Source: Nitrospirota bacterium (lineage in GTDB: Bacteria; Nitrospirota; Nitrospiria; SBBL01; JAADHI01). Taken from it: DNA of 40,527 nucleotides. Each line of letters begins with the position of its first letter. Position 1 is the first letter of the stretch. The stretch is taken from contig JAJDBT010000088.1 of the NCBI GenBank assembly GCA_029261215.1, positions 1-40,527 of the forward strand, read 5' to 3'. This document shows, one piece after another, positions 2,241-28,761 of this stretch. Under the pieces are notes generated by a model. The model made no database searches, was not told the DNA's origin, and saw only the letters and a program-made list of their open reading frames with translations. Position numbers and translations under genes: made by a program.

Positions 2241-4658
2241 TCAAGTTAAGGCTGGAACCTCGGAAAGAGAGGAAAGGGCTTCAAGCAAAGATTGAACGGA
2301 TTGAAAACGTTTTTCGCGTTCTTTTTCAATACATTTTAATACGATTTGATCCAGCGCGGGCGGCAGATCGGGAACCACCATTCTGGGCGGCGTCGGTGGG
2401 GTGTGAAGATGCTGATAATAAATATCGCCTTTTGTAAAAGGGGGACGTCCTGTCACCATGCGATAAAAGGTGCATCCAAGTGAATAGACATCCGAGAGTG
2501 TATCAACTTTTTCTCCCACAATTTGCTCAGGGGACATGTAAAGTGGAGTCCCTTTGATCGATGTTTTTTCTTTCATCGTATCAGTCAGCATCTTCGCTAA
2601 ACCAAAATCCATGATTTTGACCGTTCTGTCTTTGAGCAACATGACATTTGCAGGTTTTAAATCCCGGTGAATGACGTTGCGTTGATGTGCATAATTGACG
2701 CCTCGGCAGATTGATTTCATGATCTCAACCCGTTCTCTTAGCGGCGAGCGGTATCGTTCGAGGTACTGTTTTAAACTAATCCCGTCAATAAATTCCATGG
2801 TAATGTAGATATCATCCCCATTTTTACCCGTGTCAAAGATCGTCACAATATTAGGGTGATTCAAGGCCGCCGCGATGCGGGCTTCCTGCAAAAAACTTTT
2901 AAGCACCGCTGCATTTTCCCGAATCGATTGAGGCAGGATTTTATATGCAACAGATCGTTTCAAAACAGCGTCTTGCGCGAGAAAAACGACACCCATCCCT
3001 CCCTGGCCAATCTTTCGGATCATTTTATAGCGGGGCTGAATGTTGGCACTTTGAGAATGATTGAGTTGCGGAGCGGAGACTTCAGCAGAATCCAGGGCCT
3101 TTTGAACTTCGTGTAAGGCTTTTTTAAGACGGGTACTCCGTTGCTTCACATCTTTATAATTGTAATTATTTCTTAAGATAAAATCATACAGTGAATCCGC
3201 TTCCTCGAAATCCTTTTCAGACTCCTGCAATACCGCCTGGCGATAATAGATTTCTATATTTTTAGGCGTAATGGATTTCCTCGAAACCACTTTTTGAAAA
3301 CAGTCTTTTGCAGCCGGAATCATTCGTCGTTCAATCAGCAAGTCCCCCAGGAGCAGGGTCGCGGTAAAAAAGCCCTCTGAATCAGGATCGACCTTCTGCA
3401 AATACGAAATACATTGATCAATATCACCACCCTCTTTAAACAACAACGCAGCGGCATAATAATCTCCGATAAGTTCCTGAACCTTTGCCGCACGGTCATA
3501 CTGCTTTAATTGAACATACAAGTCTGAGGCTTCTGTGAGACGACCCGCCCTTTCAAAAGATTTTGCGGCCGCTTCAATGTTGCCCACAGAAAGAAAGAGG
3601 TCGGCCGAACGATGGTAGTCTCCCGCCTGCTGATACATCTCCCCCGCCGATGCTTTATCACCCACTTTTTCGTACATTTCTGCGGACTCGACCCAACTTT
3701 CGCCTTCGCTGTAGGCCTTGGCCGCGAGGACAAAATCGCCATCTTCTTGATGCCGCTTCGCCATAATCCAATGACCTCGTTTTGGGTCACCCATCGCATT
3801 GTACAATTTCGCGGCCTTTTCAAAACTTTTGGCAGAGAGATAAAACTGAGCGGCTTTTTCCATATTTCCAGCTTGCACAGCGGCATCGGCGGCCTGTTCA
3901 AAAAAATCTCCGGCTGCAAAAATCTCCATGGCCTTCTTATATTGTTTCATTTTGATATAGAGCACACCACTCTCATGCGCAGCCTGGCGGATTTGATGTA
4001 ATTTTTCAGGACTTTGGTTCGAAGAGAGCACTTTTTGTTTCAGGAAAAAAGCTTCAAACTTTTCAGCGGACCGCTCATAGTCTTCAGAAAGTTTGTACAG
4101 TTGTGCGGACTTTAATTGCTTTCCAAAGTTTTCATATTGACTCGCGGCTTTTTTATATTCCCGACCTTTTTCATACATCTCCGCTGCGAGCAAGTTTTTG
4201 TGACAAGCCAGATAACATTCGGCAGCCTGAAGGTAATCTCCGCCACGCTGATACATCAGTGCAGATTTTTCGGAATCCCCGGAAAGACTGTAGAATTGCG
4301 CGGCATCATCCCATTGTTTTAGTTTTTCATAGACGCGGCCGACTTGCTGAAATGCCCTTGCAGACTTGTAAGATGCAATCGCTTGCTGATAATTCTGCGC
4401 CTGCTCATAAAGCTCTCCGGCCAAAAACGGGTCGTGAGATTTTGCAGCGTGCTCTGCTTCGCGAAAACTGTTATGCGAATCGCCAGGCGTCATCACACGA
4501 TATTTTTTGAATAAGGTGTAGCCCCAAATGAGCATAAAGAACAAAAACCCGTAGGCAATCAGGGACATTGTGGAGAGCGCTAAAACATAATCTAGGGCCA
4601 TTACAGCCAAATCACTCAACAGAGGAAGTATTTTTTCTGACCAGGCAGGAAGATTCAT
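2241..4658 (-). CDS. Membrane-anchored Ser/Thr protein kinase with a long helical repeat region
   Basis: An 805-residue protein. Residues about 15-50 hold one or two hydrophobic segments ending in LFKKY, so the N terminus is probably membrane-anchored with the rest cytoplasmic. About residues 70-430 consist of short TPR-like helical repeats recurring roughly every 20 residues with A-x-x-Y-E-x-A-x-D-Y/F character. A Hanks-type kinase domain occupies roughly 540-800, with IGQGGMG glycine loop, VAYK lysine, HRDLKPANVM catalytic loop, DFGLAK and SPEQ motifs, so all catalytic residues are present. The start ATG overlaps the stop of the upstream FHA gene by 4 bp (ATGA), indicating translational coupling. 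Inference: the repeats gather stress or scaffold signals, and the FHA partner reads phospho-threonine output. Substrates are unknown. Confidence 0.9.
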   Translation of the reverse strand: MNLPAWSEKILPLLSDLAVMALDYVLALSTMSLIAYGFLFFMLIWGYTLFKKYRVMTPGDSHNSFREAEHAAKSHDPFLAGELYEQAQNYQQAIASYKSARAFQQVGRVYEKLKQWDDAAQFYSLSGDSEKSALMYQRGGDYLQAAECYLACHKNLLAAEMYEKGREYKKAASQYENFGKQLKSAQLYKLSEDYERSAEKFEAFFLKQKVLSSNQSPEKLHQIRQAAHESGVLYIKMKQYKKAMEIFAAGDFFEQAADAAVQAGNMEKAAQFYLSAKSFEKAAKLYNAMGDPKRGHWIMAKRHQEDGDFVLAAKAYSEGESWVESAEMYEKVGDKASAGEMYQQAGDYHRSADLFLSVGNIEAAAKSFERAGRLTEASDLYVQLKQYDRAAKVQELIGDYYAAALLFKEGGDIDQCISYLQKVDPDSEGFFTATLLLGDLLIERRMIPAAKDCFQKVVSRKSITPKNIEIYYRQAVLQESEKDFEEADSLYDFILRNNYNYKDVKQRSTRLKKALHEVQKALDSAEVSAPQLNHSQSANIQPRYKMIRKIGQGGMGVVFLAQDAVLKRSVAYKILPQSIRENAAVLKSFLQEARIAAALNHPNIVTIFDTGKNGDDIYITMEFIDGISLKQYLERYRSPLRERVEIMKSICRGVNYAHQRNVIHRDLKPANVMLLKDRTVKIMDFGLAKMLTDTMKEKTSIKGTPLYMSPEQIVGEKVDTLSDVYSLGCTFYRMVTGRPPFTKGDIYYQHLHTPPTPPRMVVPDLPPALDQIVLKCIEKEREKRFQSVQSLLEALSSLSEVPALT

Positions 4659-5689
4659 GATGCAGGGACAACCTTGAGACGGATGTCGCCTAATCGAATT
4701 TCATCGTTCAGGGAAAGCCTTTTTTCCTTCTCTTTACTGTCATTCACAAAAAGTCCGTTGGTGCTCTGATGGTCACGTATAAATAAACCGGAAGGCGTCC
4801 ATTCCAGTTCTGCATGCACACGCGAAATTTGGGGATCGTTGAGCTGAACGTCCACATTCCCTCGGCCAAGCTTCACTGCTTCTTTGGAAACCCGAATTAA
4901 AAACCCCGCACGACTTCCCGTAAGCACTTCAACCCATAGCGTCGAGGCATTATTTTTTTCGGGAGAACCGACGGCTTTGCCTTCAGAAAGCAAGTCCAAA
5001 GGGACTGGCGTCGCATCATCTTCATCCAACAAGGGTCCATCATCTTCTTTTTGCCCGGCATTATCCGAAAAATGCTTCATTGCGTACTCGCTGTCACGAG
5101 CGGCATGGACATCTGCACCATCATAAAGTTCAATCCGGGTCAGACCGTCTTTAGAAAAAACCTTGGTGAGCTGATTTTCTTCCGAATCGGCACCACGATC
5201 CATGTCTTCAAGGTAGGCATCGCGTAAAATCCCTCCTATGAAATAAAAGAGATTCATCTGTTTTTTATTTTTAAGGGTAAGGACTGCTTCTTTCTTATTT
5301 CTCGATAGATGACTTAAAAGACGCTTAAGATCCACCAATTCGCTGGTTAAGACGAACCTCGGACTGGCCTGTGCCATCATCAAAAGAGACTTAAAAAACA
5401 CAGGGCTTACGCGGTAGAGGTCAAGCACACCCTCCATTTGATCTGTTTCTCTAAAATAATCTGAAAAAAGAAGTGGTTTTAGACGATCTTCGGCAAGACG
5501 GTAGAGTGCATAACATTCATCTTCTAAAATGAAGTGAAGAAACTGCTGTTCCTGCCCATCCAAAAACAAGATCGCCGTACTAAGTCCTTCTTTTTGTTTA
5601 ATTTTATTAAGGACTGGCTTAATCGAATCAGAGGACTTGAACACAACAGAGAAGACTCTTTCCTCTTTATAAATAAGCGACTTGAACAC
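4655..5689 (-). CDS. FHA-domain protein coupled to the kinase
   Basis: A 344-residue cytoplasmic protein. Its C-terminal 90 residues form an FHA phospho-threonine-binding domain, with LGRG, ISRVHAEL and STNGLFVND motifs. The N-terminal 200 residues match nothing I recognise; they have a mixed alpha/beta look followed by an acidic linker (about residues 205-240). The GTG at 5689 has no ribosome site before it, and the candidate promoter would start the message almost exactly at this codon. A later GTG at codon 16 is a possible alternative start. The gene overlaps the kinase start by 4 bp, so the two are co-expressed and very likely act together. Confidence 0.85.
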   Translation of the reverse strand: MFKSLIYKEERVFSVVFKSSDSIKPVLNKIKQKEGLSTAILFLDGQEQQFLHFILEDECYALYRLAEDRLKPLLFSDYFRETDQMEGVLDLYRVSPVFFKSLLMMAQASPRFVLTSELVDLKRLLSHLSRNKKEAVLTLKNKKQMNLFYFIGGILRDAYLEDMDRGADSEENQLTKVFSKDGLTRIELYDGADVHAARDSEYAMKHFSDNAGQKEDDGPLLDEDDATPVPLDLLSEGKAVGSPEKNNASTLWVEVLTGSRAGFLIRVSKEAVKLGRGNVDVQLNDPQISRVHAELEWTPSGLFIRDHQSTNGLFVNDSKEKEKRLSLNDEIRLGDIRLKVVPAS

Positions 5690-9690: not shown

Positions 9691-12189
9691 CTAACAACAA
9701 TTCCCATCCACACGACAAGAATCCCCCTCTTTCGGGGCATTCTCGACAAGCACATTCTTTCCCGAAGTCACCACAAAAAAAGGCTGGTAAGGCGCTTTTT
9801 GAAGTTTCGCTGCCGTATCGGTACACACTGCTACCGCTTGGTCTCTCGGAAACAAATGGCCTTCTTCATCCAAAACAGCCTGCATCGGGCCCAGGTAGGT
9901 GGCGTATTGTCCGACATAGTCGCACCCTGTTTTTTTCTCAAATTTATACCCCTGAACCACCACAGAGAAAAATTGATATCCCTCCACCTCTCGCCAAAGG
10001 GTGCGCTTTAAAATAGACAGACCATAAAAACCGGCCTGCTCCATTTTTGAAAGATATTCCGCCTCCGTCAATGCACCGGAAACACACTCGCCCCAAAGAC
10101 GCGGATTCGCACGCATGCCCTGCGGCACCGGTTTTTCAGAGATTGTATCCGACACCACCACACGGCCAAAATCTTTCAAAATCCGCCAGATTTCAACAAA
10201 GACCTGTTTTTTATCCGGGGAAAGATTAATCACGCAATTGGAAGTCACCACATCCGCAAATTGATCGGGCAGCGGAATCTCTTCCAAATAGCCCCTTTTA
10301 AATTCCACATTGTCAAAACCAAGATGCTTTACGACTTTTTCTTTCGCCAGATGAGCCTCACGCAGCATTTGGTCGGTCATGTCGATGCCCACGATTCGTC
10401 CAGTCGGACCCACCTGTTTTGCCGCGATAAAACAGTCAATTCCGCCGCCCGAACCGAGATCCACCATCGTTTCGCCTTTCGTCAACCCGGCAAGGCCCAC
10501 CGGACTGCCGCAGCCATACGAAATATCCAGAACTTCCTGTGGGATATGCTCGCTGTCTTCCAAAGGATAGGATTCGGGACAACACAGCGCAGGCTGGGGT
10601 TTGTCCGCCGCACCACCATAAAAATCACTCACCACACGCCGGGAATGATCCAAATCCACAGACAAAACACACACGGAGCGGGAAAGGGCAACTTCAAACC
10701 CTCCAATCGACCGTGCACCCGTTGCCACATCATCCAAAACAGCCCCTTCTCCCATCGAGGCAAAAACAATGGGACGGTCATAACCCGAGGCATTTTTTTG
10801 CCTCGCTTTACTTTCGGCCACATTGAACAATGTTTCTAAAATCCACTTTTCATAAAATGCGGAATAGGGATCTTCACCCATAAATTGACCGCTATACAGA
10901 TAGCTGTGTTCGATATCGCCGCCGCCACAAAGATATTTGAGATAACAATCCTTGCACTTTGTTTTTTTCTGAACCGTGCCCTTACGGATTTCCTTTGCCA
11001 AAGCGGCCGTGCGCCAAATGGCTTCAAGGGGTTTTTCATCGGGGTTTCCCATTTTTAGTTCGGGAATGCCCGCCAGAGCGGCGGAGGGATAAACTTGCCC
11101 GTCCGCATAGATGCACAGCGACTCATAGGCCGCATTGGAAAGATCAATCTTCACCCCGGAAGGCCCCATCAACTGCCCCAGCAAAGTATCAAAATTATCA
11201 AAGGTAATTCCCGCCTGAGCGGTAAGTTCTTTTGTTTTTTTAAAAGCCTCAAACAATGCGGGAATCGCTGGGGACTCCAGGCTTTCGGTTCCGACTGCGC
11301 GGCCCCGGTGATGGCTGAGCAAAAAATGAAGGTTTTTAATCCCCAACGAAGAAGCCAGCTTCACCATATCCGGCAAATGGGCCACATTCGCGCGGTTCAC
11401 CACGGTTGTCAGGGTCGGTGAAAAACCCAGACTGATCACCTCTTTAATGCCATGGACGCTTGCATCAAATGTTCCATTGCCGCGAATGGGGTTGTTGATT
11501 TCTGCTGTTGGGCCGTCAAGACTGATTTGTAATTGAATCTGGTCAGGTGCGTAGGTCGCCAGGCGTTTGAGGTGCGCTCCTCGAAACAACATGCCATTGG
11601 TCAAAATAATCAATTCAGGTTTTATTGTGTCCGTACCGGCCAAAATATGATCGATCAGCACAAAAATATCCTCCCGTAAAAAAGGCTCTCCCCCGGTGAT
11701 AAAAAAACGGGAAACGCCCAGGGCCAAAGCCTGATCAATCATGCGCAGCCAAAAAGCCGTGTCTCCTCCCTTTTCTCCACTGGGAGAAGAATTGACCAGA
11801 CAATGTTCACAGGAAAGGTTGCAGGCATTGGTCACGTGAAGCCATAACTCCGTCATATGATCCAGACGAAGCGCCTCTGAACGACCGGGATAAGGCGCAC
11901 GAAGGATGGGAGCGGTTGAAATAAATCCTGTTCGTAAGGCTTCTTGGAAAAAAGTCTGGCAGTGCAGCCATCCAGCCGCCCAATCGACTTTTTCAAACTG
12001 GCAGTACAACCGCACAATTTCTGAAAAATCCCGTTTCCCATCGACCCATCGCATTAAGGCCGCGCCACGCATATCCGTGCTGATCCAATGCGGTGCTTCG
12101 GGATCAATCAGCACATTGAGGTTCTTTTGAGTCATCTCTTGGTATAAGGGGGAAAAAAACCGTGTGTCTTTCTTTATGGTGTCTGTCAT
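9691..12189 (-). CDS. Radical SAM-SPASM protein fused to an ArsM-type methyltransferase
   Basis: An 832-residue cytoplasmic two-enzyme fusion. Residues 1-100 resemble a PqqD-like precursor-binding domain. The radical SAM core begins at 118 with the [4Fe-4S] triad C123, C127, C130 (CNLSCEHC), TGGEP at 165-169 and SLDGP at 223-227. An auxiliary SPASM-like cluster region has C359, C412, C415 and C421. From about 535 there is an arsenite S-adenosylmethionine methyltransferase domain: CC at 536-537, YGCG with C560, DLGSGGGIDCFIAA, SNCVINLSPDK with C652, and GECVSGAL with C702. The positions of C560, C652 and C702 match the three catalytic thiolates known for ArsM. The ArsM-like C-terminal extension ends in a Cys-Cys pair (831-832). 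Inference: an arsenical or other thiophile is methylated and then modified by radical chemistry. The true substrate is unknown, and peptide maturation remains possible given the PqqD-like and SPASM parts. Confidence 0.9.
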   Translation of the reverse strand: MTDTIKKDTRFFSPLYQEMTQKNLNVLIDPEAPHWISTDMRGAALMRWVDGKRDFSEIVRLYCQFEKVDWAAGWLHCQTFFQEALRTGFISTAPILRAPYPGRSEALRLDHMTELWLHVTNACNLSCEHCLVNSSPSGEKGGDTAFWLRMIDQALALGVSRFFITGGEPFLREDIFVLIDHILAGTDTIKPELIILTNGMLFRGAHLKRLATYAPDQIQLQISLDGPTAEINNPIRGNGTFDASVHGIKEVISLGFSPTLTTVVNRANVAHLPDMVKLASSLGIKNLHFLLSHHRGRAVGTESLESPAIPALFEAFKKTKELTAQAGITFDNFDTLLGQLMGPSGVKIDLSNAAYESLCIYADGQVYPSAALAGIPELKMGNPDEKPLEAIWRTAALAKEIRKGTVQKKTKCKDCYLKYLCGGGDIEHSYLYSGQFMGEDPYSAFYEKWILETLFNVAESKARQKNASGYDRPIVFASMGEGAVLDDVATGARSIGGFEVALSRSVCVLSVDLDHSRRVVSDFYGGAADKPQPALCCPESYPLEDSEHIPQEVLDISYGCGSPVGLAGLTKGETMVDLGSGGGIDCFIAAKQVGPTGRIVGIDMTDQMLREAHLAKEKVVKHLGFDNVEFKRGYLEEIPLPDQFADVVTSNCVINLSPDKKQVFVEIWRILKDFGRVVVSDTISEKPVPQGMRANPRLWGECVSGALTEAEYLSKMEQAGFYGLSILKRTLWREVEGYQFFSVVVQGYKFEKKTGCDYVGQYATYLGPMQAVLDEEGHLFPRDQAVAVCTDTAAKLQKAPYQPFFVVTSGKNVLVENAPKEGDSCRVDGNCC

Positions 12190-12354: not shown

Positions 12355-12409
12355 CGAAGGCACCCGCCCTTTATTGCTTTCTAAAAAATCTTACCCTATG
12401 ATGCCTTTC

Positions 12410-13111
12410 ATGGAGGAAAAAAGTAAACTCTGGTATTTAAAAAAGATTAACTTGTTTACGGGCATGTCTTCAGAAGAGATGGAGACACTCGCGCAAAAAA
12501 CGCGTATGGAATCCGTTAGTAAAAAAACACCCATTTTTTTCCCGGGCGATCCCAGCCAGCAGGTCTACCTTCTAAAAGAAGGCCGGGTCAAAATCTCCCG
12601 TATTTCAGAGGAAGGGCGTGAAGTGACCATCGCGCTTCTTGCGCCGGGAGAAATATTCGGCGAACTTGAAGTCCTAGGGGACGCGCCTCGCGATACCCTG
12701 GCCGAAGCACTTGATGACAGCAAAATTTGCGTTGTCAAAAAAGACCTCTTTCTGGACATGGTCAGTAAAAAACCCGAGTTTTCATTTCGCTTGACCAAAT
12801 TGATTGGATTCAGAATGCGTAAAATTGAAAACCGGGTGGAAGACCTGGTTTTCAAGGACGTTCCTGCCCGGCTGGCACGACTGCTGCTGGATTTGGCCAA
12901 AGATTACGGGAAAGAAAGCCCGGACGGCATTTTTTTGCAAATCAAACTCACGCATCAGGAAATGGCCAATCTCATCGGTTCCATTCGTGAAACAGTCAGC
13001 GCCATTTTGGGCGATTTCAAACGGGAAGGCTGGATCAGTTTCGAGGGGAGAAAGATCATCCTCCTCAAGCCGGAACGCCTAAAAAAACGCACCGAATCGG
13101 TCTTTTCTTAA
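12410..13111 (+). CDS. Crp/Fnr-family transcriptional regulator
   Basis: About 233 residues. A cyclic-nucleotide-binding-type beta barrel fills residues about 10-125 (FFPGDPSQQVYLLKEGRVKI, GEIFGELEVLGD), then a dimer helix, then a winged helix-turn-helix with LTHQEMANLIGSIRETVSAI, whose RETVS recognition helix matches Crp-type readers. There is a single cysteine, so it cannot hold an Fnr-type iron-sulfur cluster. The ligand is unknown. The start is uncertain: ATGs at 12398, 12401 and 12410 all lack a clear ribosome site, and I used the last because the protein opens there as family members do. It is divergent from the radical SAM-ArsM fusion across a spacer of about 220 bp, which makes that gene a natural target. 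Confidence 0.92.
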   Translation: MEEKSKLWYLKKINLFTGMSSEEMETLAQKTRMESVSKKTPIFFPGDPSQQVYLLKEGRVKISRISEEGREVTIALLAPGEIFGELEVLGDAPRDTLAEALDDSKICVVKKDLFLDMVSKKPEFSFRLTKLIGFRMRKIENRVEDLVFKDVPARLARLLLDLAKDYGKESPDGIFLQIKLTHQEMANLIGSIRETVSAILGDFKREGWISFEGRKIILLKPERLKKRTESVFS

Positions 13112-13199: not shown

Positions 13200-13448
13200 A
13201 TGCTAACTCTGGAAGTGTATCTCTCATCCAATTGCCTTTCGGCCCCTGCCGCAAAGACGGTCGCAGAACAGGCAGTTAAAAAGATCGAGCAAGTCCATCT
13301 CGTTTTTCGGGATGAAGAAAAAGACCATGACCGTGCTGCATCCATCGGACTGTTTATTTTTCCGGCTTTTGTCATTGGCACTGAAATTTTAACAATTGGA
13401 CTTCCTTCTTTAGAGGACTTGGTCCTGATGTTGAAAAATAAACTTTGA
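13200..13448 (+). CDS. Small thioredoxin-fold-like protein
   Basis: 82 residues, no signal peptide. The opening LEVYLSSNCLSAP, the following helix and the late FPAFVIGTEIL with its near-cis-proline context fit a minimal thioredoxin/glutaredoxin fold. Only one cysteine is present (residue 9), so a CxxC disulfide mechanism is not possible; a mono-thiol or structural role is more likely. There is no clear ribosome site before the ATG. It sits between the Crp/Fnr gene and the His-rich exported protein on the same strand with short gaps, so the three may be one transcript. Confidence 0.7.
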   Translation: MLTLEVYLSSNCLSAPAAKTVAEQAVKKIEQVHLVFRDEEKDHDRAASIGLFIFPAFVIGTEILTIGLPSLEDLVLMLKNKL

Positions 13449-24754: not shown

Positions 24755-26089
24755 TTACCCACGTTTTTGTTCAACCTCGCTTAAAACCGTTTCAAAAATG
24801 TCCAGTCCCGCGTCGGCTTCTTTTTGAGTCAGTACCAGCGGCGGCATAAACCGAATCGTATTTTGCCCGCAGCCTAAAATTAAAAGCCCTTTTTGAAAAC
24901 AACCTTGGATAATCCGGGCACGCTCTTCAATGGCCATCTCTTTGCTTTCCCGATCCTTCACCAGCTCAATGCCAATCATCAAGCCCATGCCGCGCACATC
25001 ACCCATGAGTGGATGACTTCCCTGCATGTTTCGAAGGCGATCCAGGAGATAGTTTCCGATTTTTTCTGCATTTTGTATCAATCCATTTTCAAGCAATTCG
25101 AGTGTCGCGAGGGCGGCCTCACAGGCAATGGGATTGCCGCCGAAGGTGTTGGCATGTGAACCCGATTCCCAGGAGTCCATCACCTGACTTTTCGCCACGA
25201 TTGCCCCGAGCGGCAAGCCGGATGCAATGCCTTTGGCAAGGGTCATGATATCGGGAACAACACCAAAATGCTCCGAGGCAAACATCTTCCCCGTTCGCCC
25301 GATACCACTCTGAACCTCGTCAACAACCATCAGAATGCCGTACGATTTCGCCAATTGCGCCAGTCGTTTCAAAAAATCTTTTGGCGGAACGATGTAGCCC
25401 CCTTCACCTTGAATCGCTTCAACAAAAATCGCCGCGACCTCTTCCCCAGGGACAAGATGTTTAAAAGCCGTTTCCTGTATCCACTCCAAGGTAAAATCAA
25501 CCGTTTGCTCTGCCGACAAACCTGCGGGTGGACGATAAGGGTTTGGATAAGGGGCGTGAATCACGCTAGATAACAAGGGAGCAAATCCTTTTTTATGGAG
25601 CGTCTTGCTGCCCGTCAGAGCCAGCGCACCCATGGTTCTGCCGTGGAATGCCCCTGTAAATGCAATATAATACGGCCTTTTTGTCGCATATCGTGCAAGC
25701 TTCATTGCGGCCTCAACAGACTCAGCCCCCGAATTTGTAAAAAACACCTTTTTTTTCATCCGACCCGGAGCAAGACGGCACAGAGCCTCCGCCAAAAGCA
25801 CTTCGGATGGATAATAAAAATCAGTTCCCGACATGTGGATCAATTTTTTTGCCTGATTACAGATGGCTTTCACGACTTTGGGGTGGCAATGCCCCGTCGC
25901 AGTGACCGCAATGCCAGAAGTGAAGTCGAGATATTCAAATCCATCCACATCAGTCATTCGACAGCCTTTTGCCGAATCCACAACAAGCGGATAGGCGCGT
26001 GTCACGGATTTTGAGATGACGCAATGATCCCGCTTCACCCACTTTTTCGCTTCAGGCCCCGGTCGATTCCTTGATTTCTTGGATTTCAC
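24755..26089 (-). CDS. Class III PLP-dependent aminotransferase (4-aminobutyrate / ornithine type)
   Basis: A 444-residue cytoplasmic enzyme. Recognised from [56 protein letters not shown] and the PLP lysine in [13 protein letters not shown], then [20 protein letters not shown]. The start is the GTG at 26089, with AGGAGG 5 nt upstream. The subfamily (GABA, acetylornithine, putrescine or the archaeal-type broad amino-acid racemase group) cannot be fixed, but the agmatinase gene 30 bp upstream on the same strand suggests a role in breakdown of putrescine-derived amino compounds. Confidence 0.9.
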
Positions 26090-26119
26090 GCACACCTCCT
26101 TTACAAGCCGCTTGGGTTG

Positions 26120-27067
26120 TCATAATAAGGTTGTTCGTTCTTTTCTCTCTTTTTTACGAAGGACGAGGCCAAAAAGTTCCGTGATCACGCGAAGCGCGGC
26201 AAAACTGGTGATATCCGACACATCCAAAGGCGGGGCCACTTCGACCAGGTCTGCTCCGATGATGGACAGTCGATCCAGGCTCCGAATCAGGGTAATCAAA
26301 TCCCGTGTCGTCAATCCTCCGGCATCGGGAATCCCTGTGCCGGGGGCATACGCAGGGTCAAGCACATCAATATCGATCGAAAGGTACACATTGGACAAGC
26401 CTGAAAATGCCGTCACGATTTCTTCGGCAATCGGACGGATACCGCGTTCCGCAACTTCATAGGCCGGGTACATTTTCATCTGATGTTCCTGAATAAAACG
26501 CAGTCCCGCCGGTTCGATGCAACGTGTACCCAGTAAAATCGTGTGCTGAGGGGAAAACTGCTCGCACCCCATTGTTCGGCGCAGAGGACAGGCGTTGGAA
26601 TAGGGCGAGCCCTGAAAATGCTCACTCAAGTCTGTATGAGCGTCGATAAAAAGCATCGCAATCTTCTCCGTCGCGTGCCGGCTGTAGGCCTCATGAACCG
26701 GAATCACAACGGAATGATCTCCACCCAGGGTCAAAAGAAAGGAAGATTGAATTTGCTCTGCGACTTTTTGTACGATTTTTGGATGGGCGGCTACAAAATC
26801 TCCGCCAAAGTCGAAATTACCTTCATCCCGAATAACAAGAGAACTGAGATTTTCGCCTGTTTCAAGCACAGCCGGGATTTCAGAAGACAGAAACCGAATC
26901 CGGTCTGGCCCTTCAGCGGCCCCCGGACGAAAACAAGCCGCGCCGTCATAGGCCAGTCCTAAAATTTTAAGGTCTGGAAAATCGGCCTCTGGACGATTCA
27001 AGCCCGCCCAGCGAAGGGTTCCCTTTGCTGCGAGGTTCTGTTTTACTTCGCCTTCAAAAAGCGGCAT
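26120..27067 (-). CDS. speB: Agmatinase (ureohydrolase family)
   Basis: 315 residues. Releases urea from agmatine to give putrescine, using two Mn2+ ions. The ligand motifs are GGDHSVVIP, FIDAHTDLSEH and SIDIDVLDPAYAPGTGIPDA, matching the ureohydrolase signatures, and the last one favours agmatinase over arginase. The ATG at 27067 has GGGAGG 6 nt upstream and is better than the upstream ATG at 27088. The downstream aminotransferase is probably co-transcribed. No arginine decarboxylase is in the window, so formiminoglutamase-like or other guanidino substrates are not excluded. Confidence 0.88.
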   Translation of the reverse strand: MPLFEGEVKQNLAAKGTLRWAGLNRPEADFPDLKILGLAYDGAACFRPGAAEGPDRIRFLSSEIPAVLETGENLSSLVIRDEGNFDFGGDFVAAHPKIVQKVAEQIQSSFLLTLGGDHSVVIPVHEAYSRHATEKIAMLFIDAHTDLSEHFQGSPYSNACPLRRTMGCEQFSPQHTILLGTRCIEPAGLRFIQEHQMKMYPAYEVAERGIRPIAEEIVTAFSGLSNVYLSIDIDVLDPAYAPGTGIPDAGGLTTRDLITLIRSLDRLSIIGADLVEVAPPLDVSDITSFAALRVITELFGLVLRKKERKERTTLL

Positions 27068-27187
27068 ACGACACCCTCCCCTTTTCATTATACCATTTGA
27101 ATTTTGGCACGAAAAAACGAAGGGGTCTCGGAGAAAACAAACTTCGGATGATTTTTAGGGGAAATCCGGTGGAGATAGGGACAGGTT

Positions 27188-27574
27188 TTACAAAATACCA
27201 ATGCCCCGTTTACCAAAAGAAAACGCGTCAATTGCAGCAACAATAAACACAATATTATTAAACACCCAGGATTTGGCGGAATAATTGGCGGTCATATACG
27301 CGAAGACCGCGACAACGATATACAGAAAACCTCTCATATATTCCCGAACATATAACTGACCCAAACCTGCAAAAATCAATGAAAACACGCCCGCAACAAT
27401 TCCCCGCTTTAACCCTTTGGGTTGAGGGCACGCAAGGAAAAAAATGCAAATGAATACCACCACAAGCCATTTCCAGGCCAAAGGCATGAGTTGAGGCAGC
27501 TTCAAAAAAAAGATTGAAAAGGCGATCACCACAGCGACCCTGTGCCAGGGCGGCCTCACAAAGGATTTAAACAT
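27188..27574 (-). CDS. Small multi-pass membrane protein
   Basis: 128 residues with four or so hydrophobic helices (about residues 10-30, 33-49, 57-75, 80-95, 105-118). The phrase FAGLGQLYVREYMRGFLYIV is like the G-x-G-Q-x-Y element of several small TM2-type or DUF-named membrane proteins. Its ATG overlaps the stop region of the amino-acid dehydrogenase gene by 8 bp, so they are coupled. Function unknown. Confidence 0.75.
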   Translation of the reverse strand: MFKSFVRPPWHRVAVVIAFSIFFLKLPQLMPLAWKWLVVVFICIFFLACPQPKGLKRGIVAGVFSLIFAGLGQLYVREYMRGFLYIVVAVFAYMTANYSAKSWVFNNIVFIVAAIDAFSFGKRGIGIL

Positions 27575-28619
27575 GCTTTCCCTTCTTAAGCCGTCTTTCC
27601 GCTAAAGATTCTGCGGCCTTCGCGGTGGAGATCGATTCTGTTTTGGACAAGGCAAAAACCATCTTCATGCGGTCATAAATTTTTGCAATCTTTTCATAGG
27701 CACGCGGCTGATCATAACCCGATAACTCTTCTGCGATATTAATCAATCCTCCCGCATTTAAAACATAGTCCGGCGCATACAGAATATCACGGCTGCTAAG
27801 TTCATCAACCACGCTCATCTCTTTCAGTTGATTGTTGGCCGCACCGGCAATAATTCTGCAGGCAAAACTTTTAATACTTCTCGAATTAATGATCCCGCCC
27901 AAGGCACAAGGCGCAAAAATATCACACTCGGCCCGGTAGACCTCATGCCCGTGAATGGGGTCCGCGCCGTAAAGACGAATCGCATGGGCGACCCGCTCCG
28001 GATCCATATCTGAAACGTAAAGCGACGCCCCTGCTTCGTGAAGCAGTTTGGCCAGGGCGCTTCCCACCTTTCCCATCCCCTGAATCGCGACCCGTTTCCC
28101 GGTGAATGAAGCGTTTCCGTACACTTCTTCGAGGCAGGCTTTCATCCCGCAAAAAACACCATAGGCTGTGGCTGGCGAGGGATCCCCGCTGCCGCCTTTT
28201 TCGAGGGAAAATCCGGAGACATGGGGTGTGCTTTCCCGGATCACTTCAATGTCTCCAAGCGAAATGCCGACATCTTCAGCGACAATATAACGGCCATTCA
28301 AAGAATCGATCTGTTTCGCAAAAGCGTCCAAGAGCGCTCTCGATTTATTTTTCCGGGGATCGCCCCAAATCACGCTTTTCCCGCCACCCAGCGGCAAATC
28401 ACTCACAGCCGCCTTGTAAGTCATGGCCCTCGAAAGTCTCAAGACATCGGATAAGGCCTCATTAAAAGAAGCATAGGGCCACATTCGACATCCACCCAAT
28501 GCCGGGCCCAAGCTTGTATTATGTATGGCAATGAGGGCCTGAAGCCCGGATGAGGCGTCTGAGCAAACCACGAGCTGCTCGTGTCCCTCCGCTTTAATCT
28601 GATCAAATAAATTCGTCAT
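27567..28619 (-). CDS. Leucine dehydrogenase-like Glu/Leu/Phe/Val dehydrogenase
   Basis: 350 residues, cytoplasmic. NAD-dependent reversible oxidative deamination of branched-chain or related amino acids. The catalytic lysine region is AVSDLPLGGGKSVIWG, the NAD-binding motif is GMGKVGSALAKLLHEAGA, and CALGGIIN closes the site. Length fits the leucine/valine dehydrogenase group rather than glutamate dehydrogenase. The start is the ATG at 28619 with GGTGAG 6 nt upstream. With the aminotransferase and agmatinase downstream, the region looks devoted to amino-acid nitrogen release. Confidence 0.9.
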   Translation of the reverse strand: MTNLFDQIKAEGHEQLVVCSDASSGLQALIAIHNTSLGPALGGCRMWPYASFNEALSDVLRLSRAMTYKAAVSDLPLGGGKSVIWGDPRKNKSRALLDAFAKQIDSLNGRYIVAEDVGISLGDIEVIRESTPHVSGFSLEKGGSGDPSPATAYGVFCGMKACLEEVYGNASFTGKRVAIQGMGKVGSALAKLLHEAGASLYVSDMDPERVAHAIRLYGADPIHGHEVYRAECDIFAPCALGGIINSRSIKSFACRIIAGAANNQLKEMSVVDELSSRDILYAPDYVLNAGGLINIAEELSGYDQPRAYEKIAKIYDRMKMVFALSKTESISTAKAAESLAERRLKKGKHV

Positions 28620-28761
28620 TTTTATCTCACCCTGTCTGGGATTAGAAAACATACATGGCCAAAGGCATCGGGCATCATATCACATCAAAGACTTCAATCC
28701 GTTTTTTTTGAGTGAAGAGATCGGAAAAAGGATAGGAAACGATGCGGCACTTCCCCTGTCA

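Follow-up and report, generated by a model that had tools for sequence, protein, structure and literature searches.

One review (PMC12159101) cites just two radical SAM enzymes for the formation of C-As bonds: ArsS, which attaches an adenosyl group to arsenic on the way to arsenosugars, and ArsL, which transfers an aminocarboxypropyl radical (see also PMC8552651). The ArsL of Burkholderia gladioli is a separate protein of 428 aa (PMC8552651). ArsM has been found joined to another protein in the arsM-SelD fusion of Naegleria gruberi (PMC5552862). In the open-licence literature searched, no description of a radical SAM-ArsM fusion was found, and NCBIfam has no model for such a family among the matches listed.

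The window, the whole stretch of 40,527 nucleotides of Nitrospirota DNA analysed here, encodes such a fusion as a single frame of 832 aa that is free of internal stops. Pfam places Radical_SAM at residues 119-278 (68 bits), SPASM at 355-416 (28 bits), and Methyltransf_31 at 570-720 (103 bits). The gene, its parts, and the divergent regulator are as follows.

9691..12189, minus strand: fusion gene, made up of a PqqD/RRE-like domain, radical SAM core, SPASM-derived region, linker, and ArsM (frame, Pfam, NCBIfam, alignment)
11905..12150, minus strand: PqqD/RRE-like domain, residues 14-95 (PF05402 in family members; predicted fold similar to the CteB RRE)
11356..11835, minus strand: radical SAM core, residues 119-278 (PF04055, 68 bits; a genome search gives identical coordinates)
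11800..11823, minus strand: CX3CX2C [4Fe-4S] motif C123/C127/C130, CNLSCEHC (49/49 aligned proteins)
10861..11139, minus strand: degenerate SPASM region, residues 351-443 (Pfam, alignment)
10669..10671, minus strand: linker cysteine C507, CVLS (49/49, all fused and split copies aligned)
9760..10632, minus strand: ArsM half, residues 520-810, with C-terminal domain (PDB 4fr0/4kw7, E 3e-37; Z 28 to CmArsM; tree)
10579..10584, minus strand: C536-C537, where ArsM has its fourth As-site Cys (CrArsM alignment; C537 in 47/47 fusions)
10510..10512, minus strand: C560, equivalent to CmArsM C72 (alignment; 47/47 fusions)
10234..10236, minus strand: C652, equivalent to CmArsM C174 (alignment; 47/47 fusions)
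10084..10086, minus strand: C702, equivalent to CmArsM C224 (alignment; 47/47 fusions)
9694..9699, minus strand: terminal Cys-Cys (34/49 aligned; common to clade relatives and Nitrospira ArsM)
12374..13111, plus strand: Crp/Fnr-type regulator, divergent from the fusion (PF00027, PF13545)

The fusion is real, and neither chance nor artefact, because its whole architecture recurs in 47 aligned full-length proteins, which come from six phyla or more. Most hosts are uncultured members of Nitrospirota, Acidobacteriota, Elusimicrobiota, Omnitrophota, Planctomycetota, and Desulfobacterota. The other aligned proteins are 37-75% identical to the window's; full-length relatives in its genus, family, and near lineages are at 61-76% identity, and those from Nitrospirota at large, Elusimicrobiota, Omnitrophota, Acidobacteriota, an anammox planctomycete, and Desulfobacterota at 37-51%. 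We distinguish type A (34 aligned proteins, the window's included) from type B (families f36, f43, and f45). In family f17 the radical half stands alone as a protein of about 480 aa that stops right after the CVLSV linker and has a shortened PqqD-like domain, and the separate ArsM of about 320 aa is 52-55% identical to the window's ArsM half. Across the 49 aligned proteins (47 fusions and two split radical halves), C123, C127, C130, H293/G296/R297, GGG422-424, and C507 are invariant, as are C537, C560, C652, and C702 across the 47 fusions. A plasmid search returned separate ArsM or radical SAM matches only, none spanning 80% of the query. Apparent free-standing halves at G009:C118, G040:C147, G030:C165, and G021:C3/C15 were rejected as fragments because these copies stop at contig ends. 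One genome (G023) holds three fusion paralogues (L054, L055, L056), each with a PiT transporter beside it. A shorter radical SAM-ArsM fusion of 623 aa in a member of the Planctomycetota (L041:5971-7842) is without the PqqD-like domain and has a different SPASM-like region; it adjoins an AhbD/NirJ-like radical SAM gene, and its ArsM half clusters with unfused ArsM proteins, those of G020 and f17.

By tree position, cysteines, and fold, the methyltransferase half is a true ArsM. Residues 509-811 match CmArsM, CrArsM, and human AS3MT in the PDB. The earlier note, made from the window's sequence, had claimed a full ArsM with catalytic C560, C652, and C702, and these do align with C72, C174, and C224 of CmArsM; the terminal Cys-Cys it described is likewise present (...DGNCC). 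C536 aligns with the cysteine in the 'TSACTAA' segment of CrArsM. The best NCBIfam model, the arsenite methyltransferase PRK11873, scores 231 bits, under its cut-off of 263. A Nitrospira ArsM encoded beside ArsS also falls short at 234 bits, so this cut-off excludes the present ArsM branch at large. The type A halves form one clade (98/96) in an 89-row ArsM tree, adjoining the f17 ArsM inside the ArsM assemblage; CmArsM, CrArsM, and AS3MT are nested among ArsM rows, and other methyltransferases lie outside at 96/90. In a thinned tree, four outgroup rows separate at 100/100. A position outside ArsM, which the earlier note had named as evidence against its reading, was thus looked for, and the half falls inside. 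The type A and type B halves lay apart in the first tree, and two independent fusions were considered; the idea was dropped, as the AU test does not reject a single clade (p 0.34). A search of the window's genome at E 1e-25 found no ArsM besides the fusion. Judged from sequence, an arsenic methylation step carried out by the fusion appears well supported.

The radical half is not ArsS. Its CNLSCEHC motif, read earlier as that of a radical SAM enzyme, is indeed the C123/C127/C130 triad of a PF04055 core. On this side NCBIfam returns several SPASM families with no clear winner (Rv1681, AhbD, NirJ2, mycofactocin, and peptide maturases), and the PDB matches are PqqE and CteB. The ArsS model TIGR04167, with a family cut-off of 300 bits, has no match in the window's genome (G000) at E 1e-20, and the fused relatives G263 and G318 match it with 75-79 bits in the core only. 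The 12 ArsS rows of the radical SAM tree group by themselves on a long branch (100/100), and type A, type B, and f17 all lie apart from them. A reading of this half as an ArsS relative is thus not supported. For the PqqD-like N terminus of the earlier note, PF05402 gives a weak 14 bits when the window protein is taken singly; in the family it is matched by 18 of 22 members (best E 4.7e-11), and the predicted fold there resembles the CteB RRE. AlphaFold2, run on the family alignment, gave a model with pLDDT 87.4 and pTM 0.86. Predicted residues 14-461, RRE included, superpose on CteB (5wgg) with Z 31.0 over 415 aligned residues (rmsd 4.3) and on TigE (8vpo) with Z 26. From the CteB match, the N-terminal half would have the build of an RRE-bearing peptide maturase. 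Predicted residues 533-811 superpose on CmArsM with Z 27.8 and an rmsd of 6.8, from which the ArsM sub-domains are probably shifted relative to each other in the model.

The SPASM region is degenerate rather than intact. Of the seven canonical cysteines that serve two auxiliary clusters, the window protein has only C412, C415, and C421. All four SPASM-like cysteines first listed (359, 412, 415, and 421) are present, and the last three are canonical ligands; C359 is an extra conserved cysteine and not a canonical ligand. The ligands of auxiliary cluster I are replaced by S351, S369, and D425, and S443 stands in place of the last (fourth) ligand of cluster II, with ligands assigned to cluster I or II as in anSME. 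Throughout type A the cluster I ligands are lost (Ser, Ala, or Gly at 351, Ser or Thr at 369, Asp at 425), and cluster II has four cysteines, has Ser at 443 as in the window, or is wholly lost. The last state is found in 10/34, and all 10 proteins without the 412/415/421 triplet are also without C443. Type B keeps all seven cysteines. A B12-binding radical SAM gene follows the fusion at 13/14 type B loci, and the type B product probably differs from that of type A. The type B loci L081-L086, L089-L092, and L094-L096 mostly show a Cys-Cys near the N-terminus, and ArsS is often in the same genome.

Among 58 Nitrospiria relatives, the fusion is present in 22 (some as contig-end fragments), ArsS in 35, both in 2, and neither in 3. 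Of the 22 fusion genomes, 20 thus lack ArsS, and of the 36 genomes with no fusion, 33 have it. This exclusion, tested within Nitrospirota, has a Fisher p of 2e-10 by genome and 1e-4 by genus with no phylogeny correction, values that overstate it because the taxa are not independent. A larger sample of the phylum includes 16 fusion genomes from the class, and among the matches listed none of them is in the ArsS set. Strict replacement of ArsS by the fusion was rejected as too strong because G014, G015, and several f36 genomes carry both. One f36 genome (G170; L117, L123, L125, L126) has five ArsS-family genes besides the fusion. The glycosyltransferase family TIGR04282 is present in 17/20 fusion-only, 33/33 ArsS-only, and 0/3 neither genomes; TIGR04283 is in 57/58, and its presence alone is uninformative. 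The 'arsenosugar' label of both families is an NCBI annotation with no assay behind the name. In the window's genome ArsS is absent and Acr3 was not found; TIGR04283 is on contig C79 and TIGR04282 on C108. There (G000:C108:9565-10787; L152:6554-8370), TIGR04282 is followed directly by a 373-aa HemW-like radical SAM gene, a pair also seen in G001 and G007.

At the window's own locus, the neighbours are chorismate synthase, a redoxin, FmdE, a weakly DUF6812-like protein, and the Crp/Fnr regulator, with no arsenic or sugar genes among them. Other family members (L047, L049, L050, L075) have a comparable regulator upstream in divergent orientation, and it is possible that the Crp/Fnr-type protein regulates the fusion. 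Accessory genes near 38 type A fusion loci include VTT (12), PiT (10), FAD oxidoreductase (9), TIGR04282 (5), TIGR04283 (5), and DUF3047 (4); those near 29 ArsS loci include PiT (6), VTT (4), FAD oxidoreductase (4), DUF3047 (4), TIGR04283 (3), and TIGR04282 (1). The order fusion-TIGR04282-VTT-TIGR04283 occurs in a row at L037, and PiT-ArsM-ArsS-TIGR04283-DUF3047-VTT at L151. TIGR04282 lies within 6 kb of the fusion at 5/38 loci against about 0.4% expected (binomial p about 5e-7), where the expectation assumes one TIGR04282 per genome of about 3 Mb, with the copy number from Nitrospiria, and the loci are not all independent. In f17 the radical half lies beside TIGR04282 and the ArsM beside VTT-TIGR04283, with no ArsS. 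Elsewhere in the window, a TPR-serine/threonine kinase gene adjoins one for an FHA-domain protein (2241-5689, minus strand), likely a signalling pair, and clustered class III aminotransferase, arginase-family, and glutamate dehydrogenase-like genes (24755-28652, minus strand) suggest arginine/ornithine breakdown.

From context and distribution, the simplest account is that the type A fusion performs both the ArsM and the ArsS steps, as a one-chain organoarsenical synthase, and we put the probability of this reading at about 0.5. Comparison with relatives suggests that it builds arsenic sugars in bacteria without the usual two-enzyme version. The link to complex organoarsenicals drawn in the earlier note has gained support from the arsM-arsS-like neighbours of relatives, the near-exclusion with ArsS, and the split f17 genes beside glycosyltransferases labelled for arsenosugars. 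The tree position and CmArsM fold of the ArsM half, the retention of TIGR04282, and the fusion's standing as sole ArsM in the window's genome speak for the same reading. Against it stand the window locus without arsenic or sugar neighbours, the failure to find Acr3 in the genome, a radical half far from ArsS in sequence, the PqqD/RRE domain and CteB-like fold as marks of peptide-modifying enzymes, the genomes that carry both fusion and ArsS, and the near ubiquity in the class of two glycosyltransferase families whose pathway is only a label.

In the proposed mechanism, the ArsM half would bind As(III) at C560/C652/C702, with C536/C537, and use SAM to methylate it as far as dimethylarsenite. 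The resulting trivalent methylarsenical would then move on to the radical half, with the invariant C507 perhaps handing it over. A second SAM would be cleaved there by the C123/C127/C130 cluster to give a SAM-derived radical, most likely 5'-deoxyadenosyl, which by analogy with ArsS could form the C-As bond. The adenosyl-arsenical may feed the TIGR04282/TIGR04283 glycosyltransferases encoded on other contigs of the window's genome. That the radical step acts on arsenic is something we infer from gene context alone. Erosion of the auxiliary clusters agrees better with a one-cluster reaction than with a SPASM enzyme that acts on peptides. We hold more tentatively, at somewhat short of even odds, that this is a second, independently evolved route to arsenosugar-type organoarsenicals. 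On this view, an RRE-radical SAM-SPASM enzyme descended from peptide maturases was taken over for C-As bond formation and lost its auxiliary clusters, and its fusion to ArsM brought methylation and adenosylation into one polypeptide.

Alternatively, the radical half may modify a ribosomal peptide bound by the PqqD/RRE domain, a kind of chemistry that the earlier note had left room for, with the ArsM half methylating peptide-bound arsenic, as an arsenic-handling RiPP enzyme. The predicted superposition on CteB and TigE, the PF05402 matches across the family, and the peptide maturases among the nearest radical SAM family models are all consistent with such an enzyme. However, cluster I ligands are lost throughout the window's clade, cluster II is wholly lost in part of it, the separate f17 radical half has a shortened PqqD-like domain, and a family-wide search within 3 kb found no conserved small ORF between genes near the fusion save one thioredoxin-like ORF of 82 aa in three close relatives. 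We consider this alternative unlikely. Clusters of 'conserved small ORFs' around the fusion were mostly shadow frames of big genes and were gone after filtering. The 82-aa ORF, common to the window (13200-13445, plus strand) and two close relatives, has no Pfam match and is flanked by the Crp regulator and a small exported protein.

An ArsL-like transfer is quite unlikely. ArsM partners a radical SAM enzyme in arsinothricin synthesis too (PMC8552651), and the arsinothricin ArsM is the second-best NCBIfam model of the ArsM half (184 bits, cut-off 500), but the genes beside the fusion in relatives are those glycosyltransferases and transporters that also occur at arsM-arsS loci, and no arsQ-like permease is among the annotated neighbours. 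The substrate may instead be another thiophile (Se, Sb, or Te) or some small organic compound, in which case the ArsM fold would have been put to a new use. The lack of an Acr3 match in the genome, and an arsenic role predicted here from sequence, leave some room for this, although all ArsM As-binding cysteines are kept in 47/47 fusions and the relatives share the gene context of arsM-arsS, which makes it quite unlikely as well. That the halves act on unrelated substrates and are joined for co-expression only is highly improbable. The f17 halves, as separate genes at distinct loci, speak for it, but both adjoin glycosyltransferases with the same pathway label, and the full-length fusion is kept across phyla.

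If the one-chain synthase is real, it would be a third radical SAM family for C-As bonds, from another branch of the superfamily, and arsenosugar-type synthesis would extend to lineages missed by ArsS-based annotation. It would also offer a single-protein system for testing the order of methylation and radical alkylation, and would represent a peptide-maturase scaffold that moved to an inorganic substrate while losing its auxiliary clusters.

Compared with known systems, the fusion resembles arsM-SelD and the ArsM-AhpD (NF041537) and ArsM-DUF2284 (NF041536) selenoproteins in having ArsM joined to another domain; unlike them, by description, it has a radical SAM domain. It shares the predicted RRE, radical SAM, and SPASM fold of CteB and TigE, but its auxiliary cluster ligands are eroded, ArsM is fused to it, and no conserved precursor gene was found within 3 kb. 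The pairing of a radical SAM enzyme with ArsM is also that of ArsL/ArsM in arsinothricin synthesis, here in one chain. Fold, SAM motif, As-site cysteines, C-terminal domain, and tree position are those of ArsM (CmArsM 4fr0, CrArsM 5evj, AS3MT 8xt7, PRK11873), although this half sits behind a 510-residue radical SAM module and stays under the PRK11873 cut-off. With ArsS (TIGR04167), it shares the radical SAM triad, partnership with ArsM, the accessory neighbours seen in relatives, and the near-exclusion in Nitrospiria, and it differs from ArsS in its RRE-like domain and SPASM-derived region, its separate branch in the tree, and an ArsM carried in the same chain.
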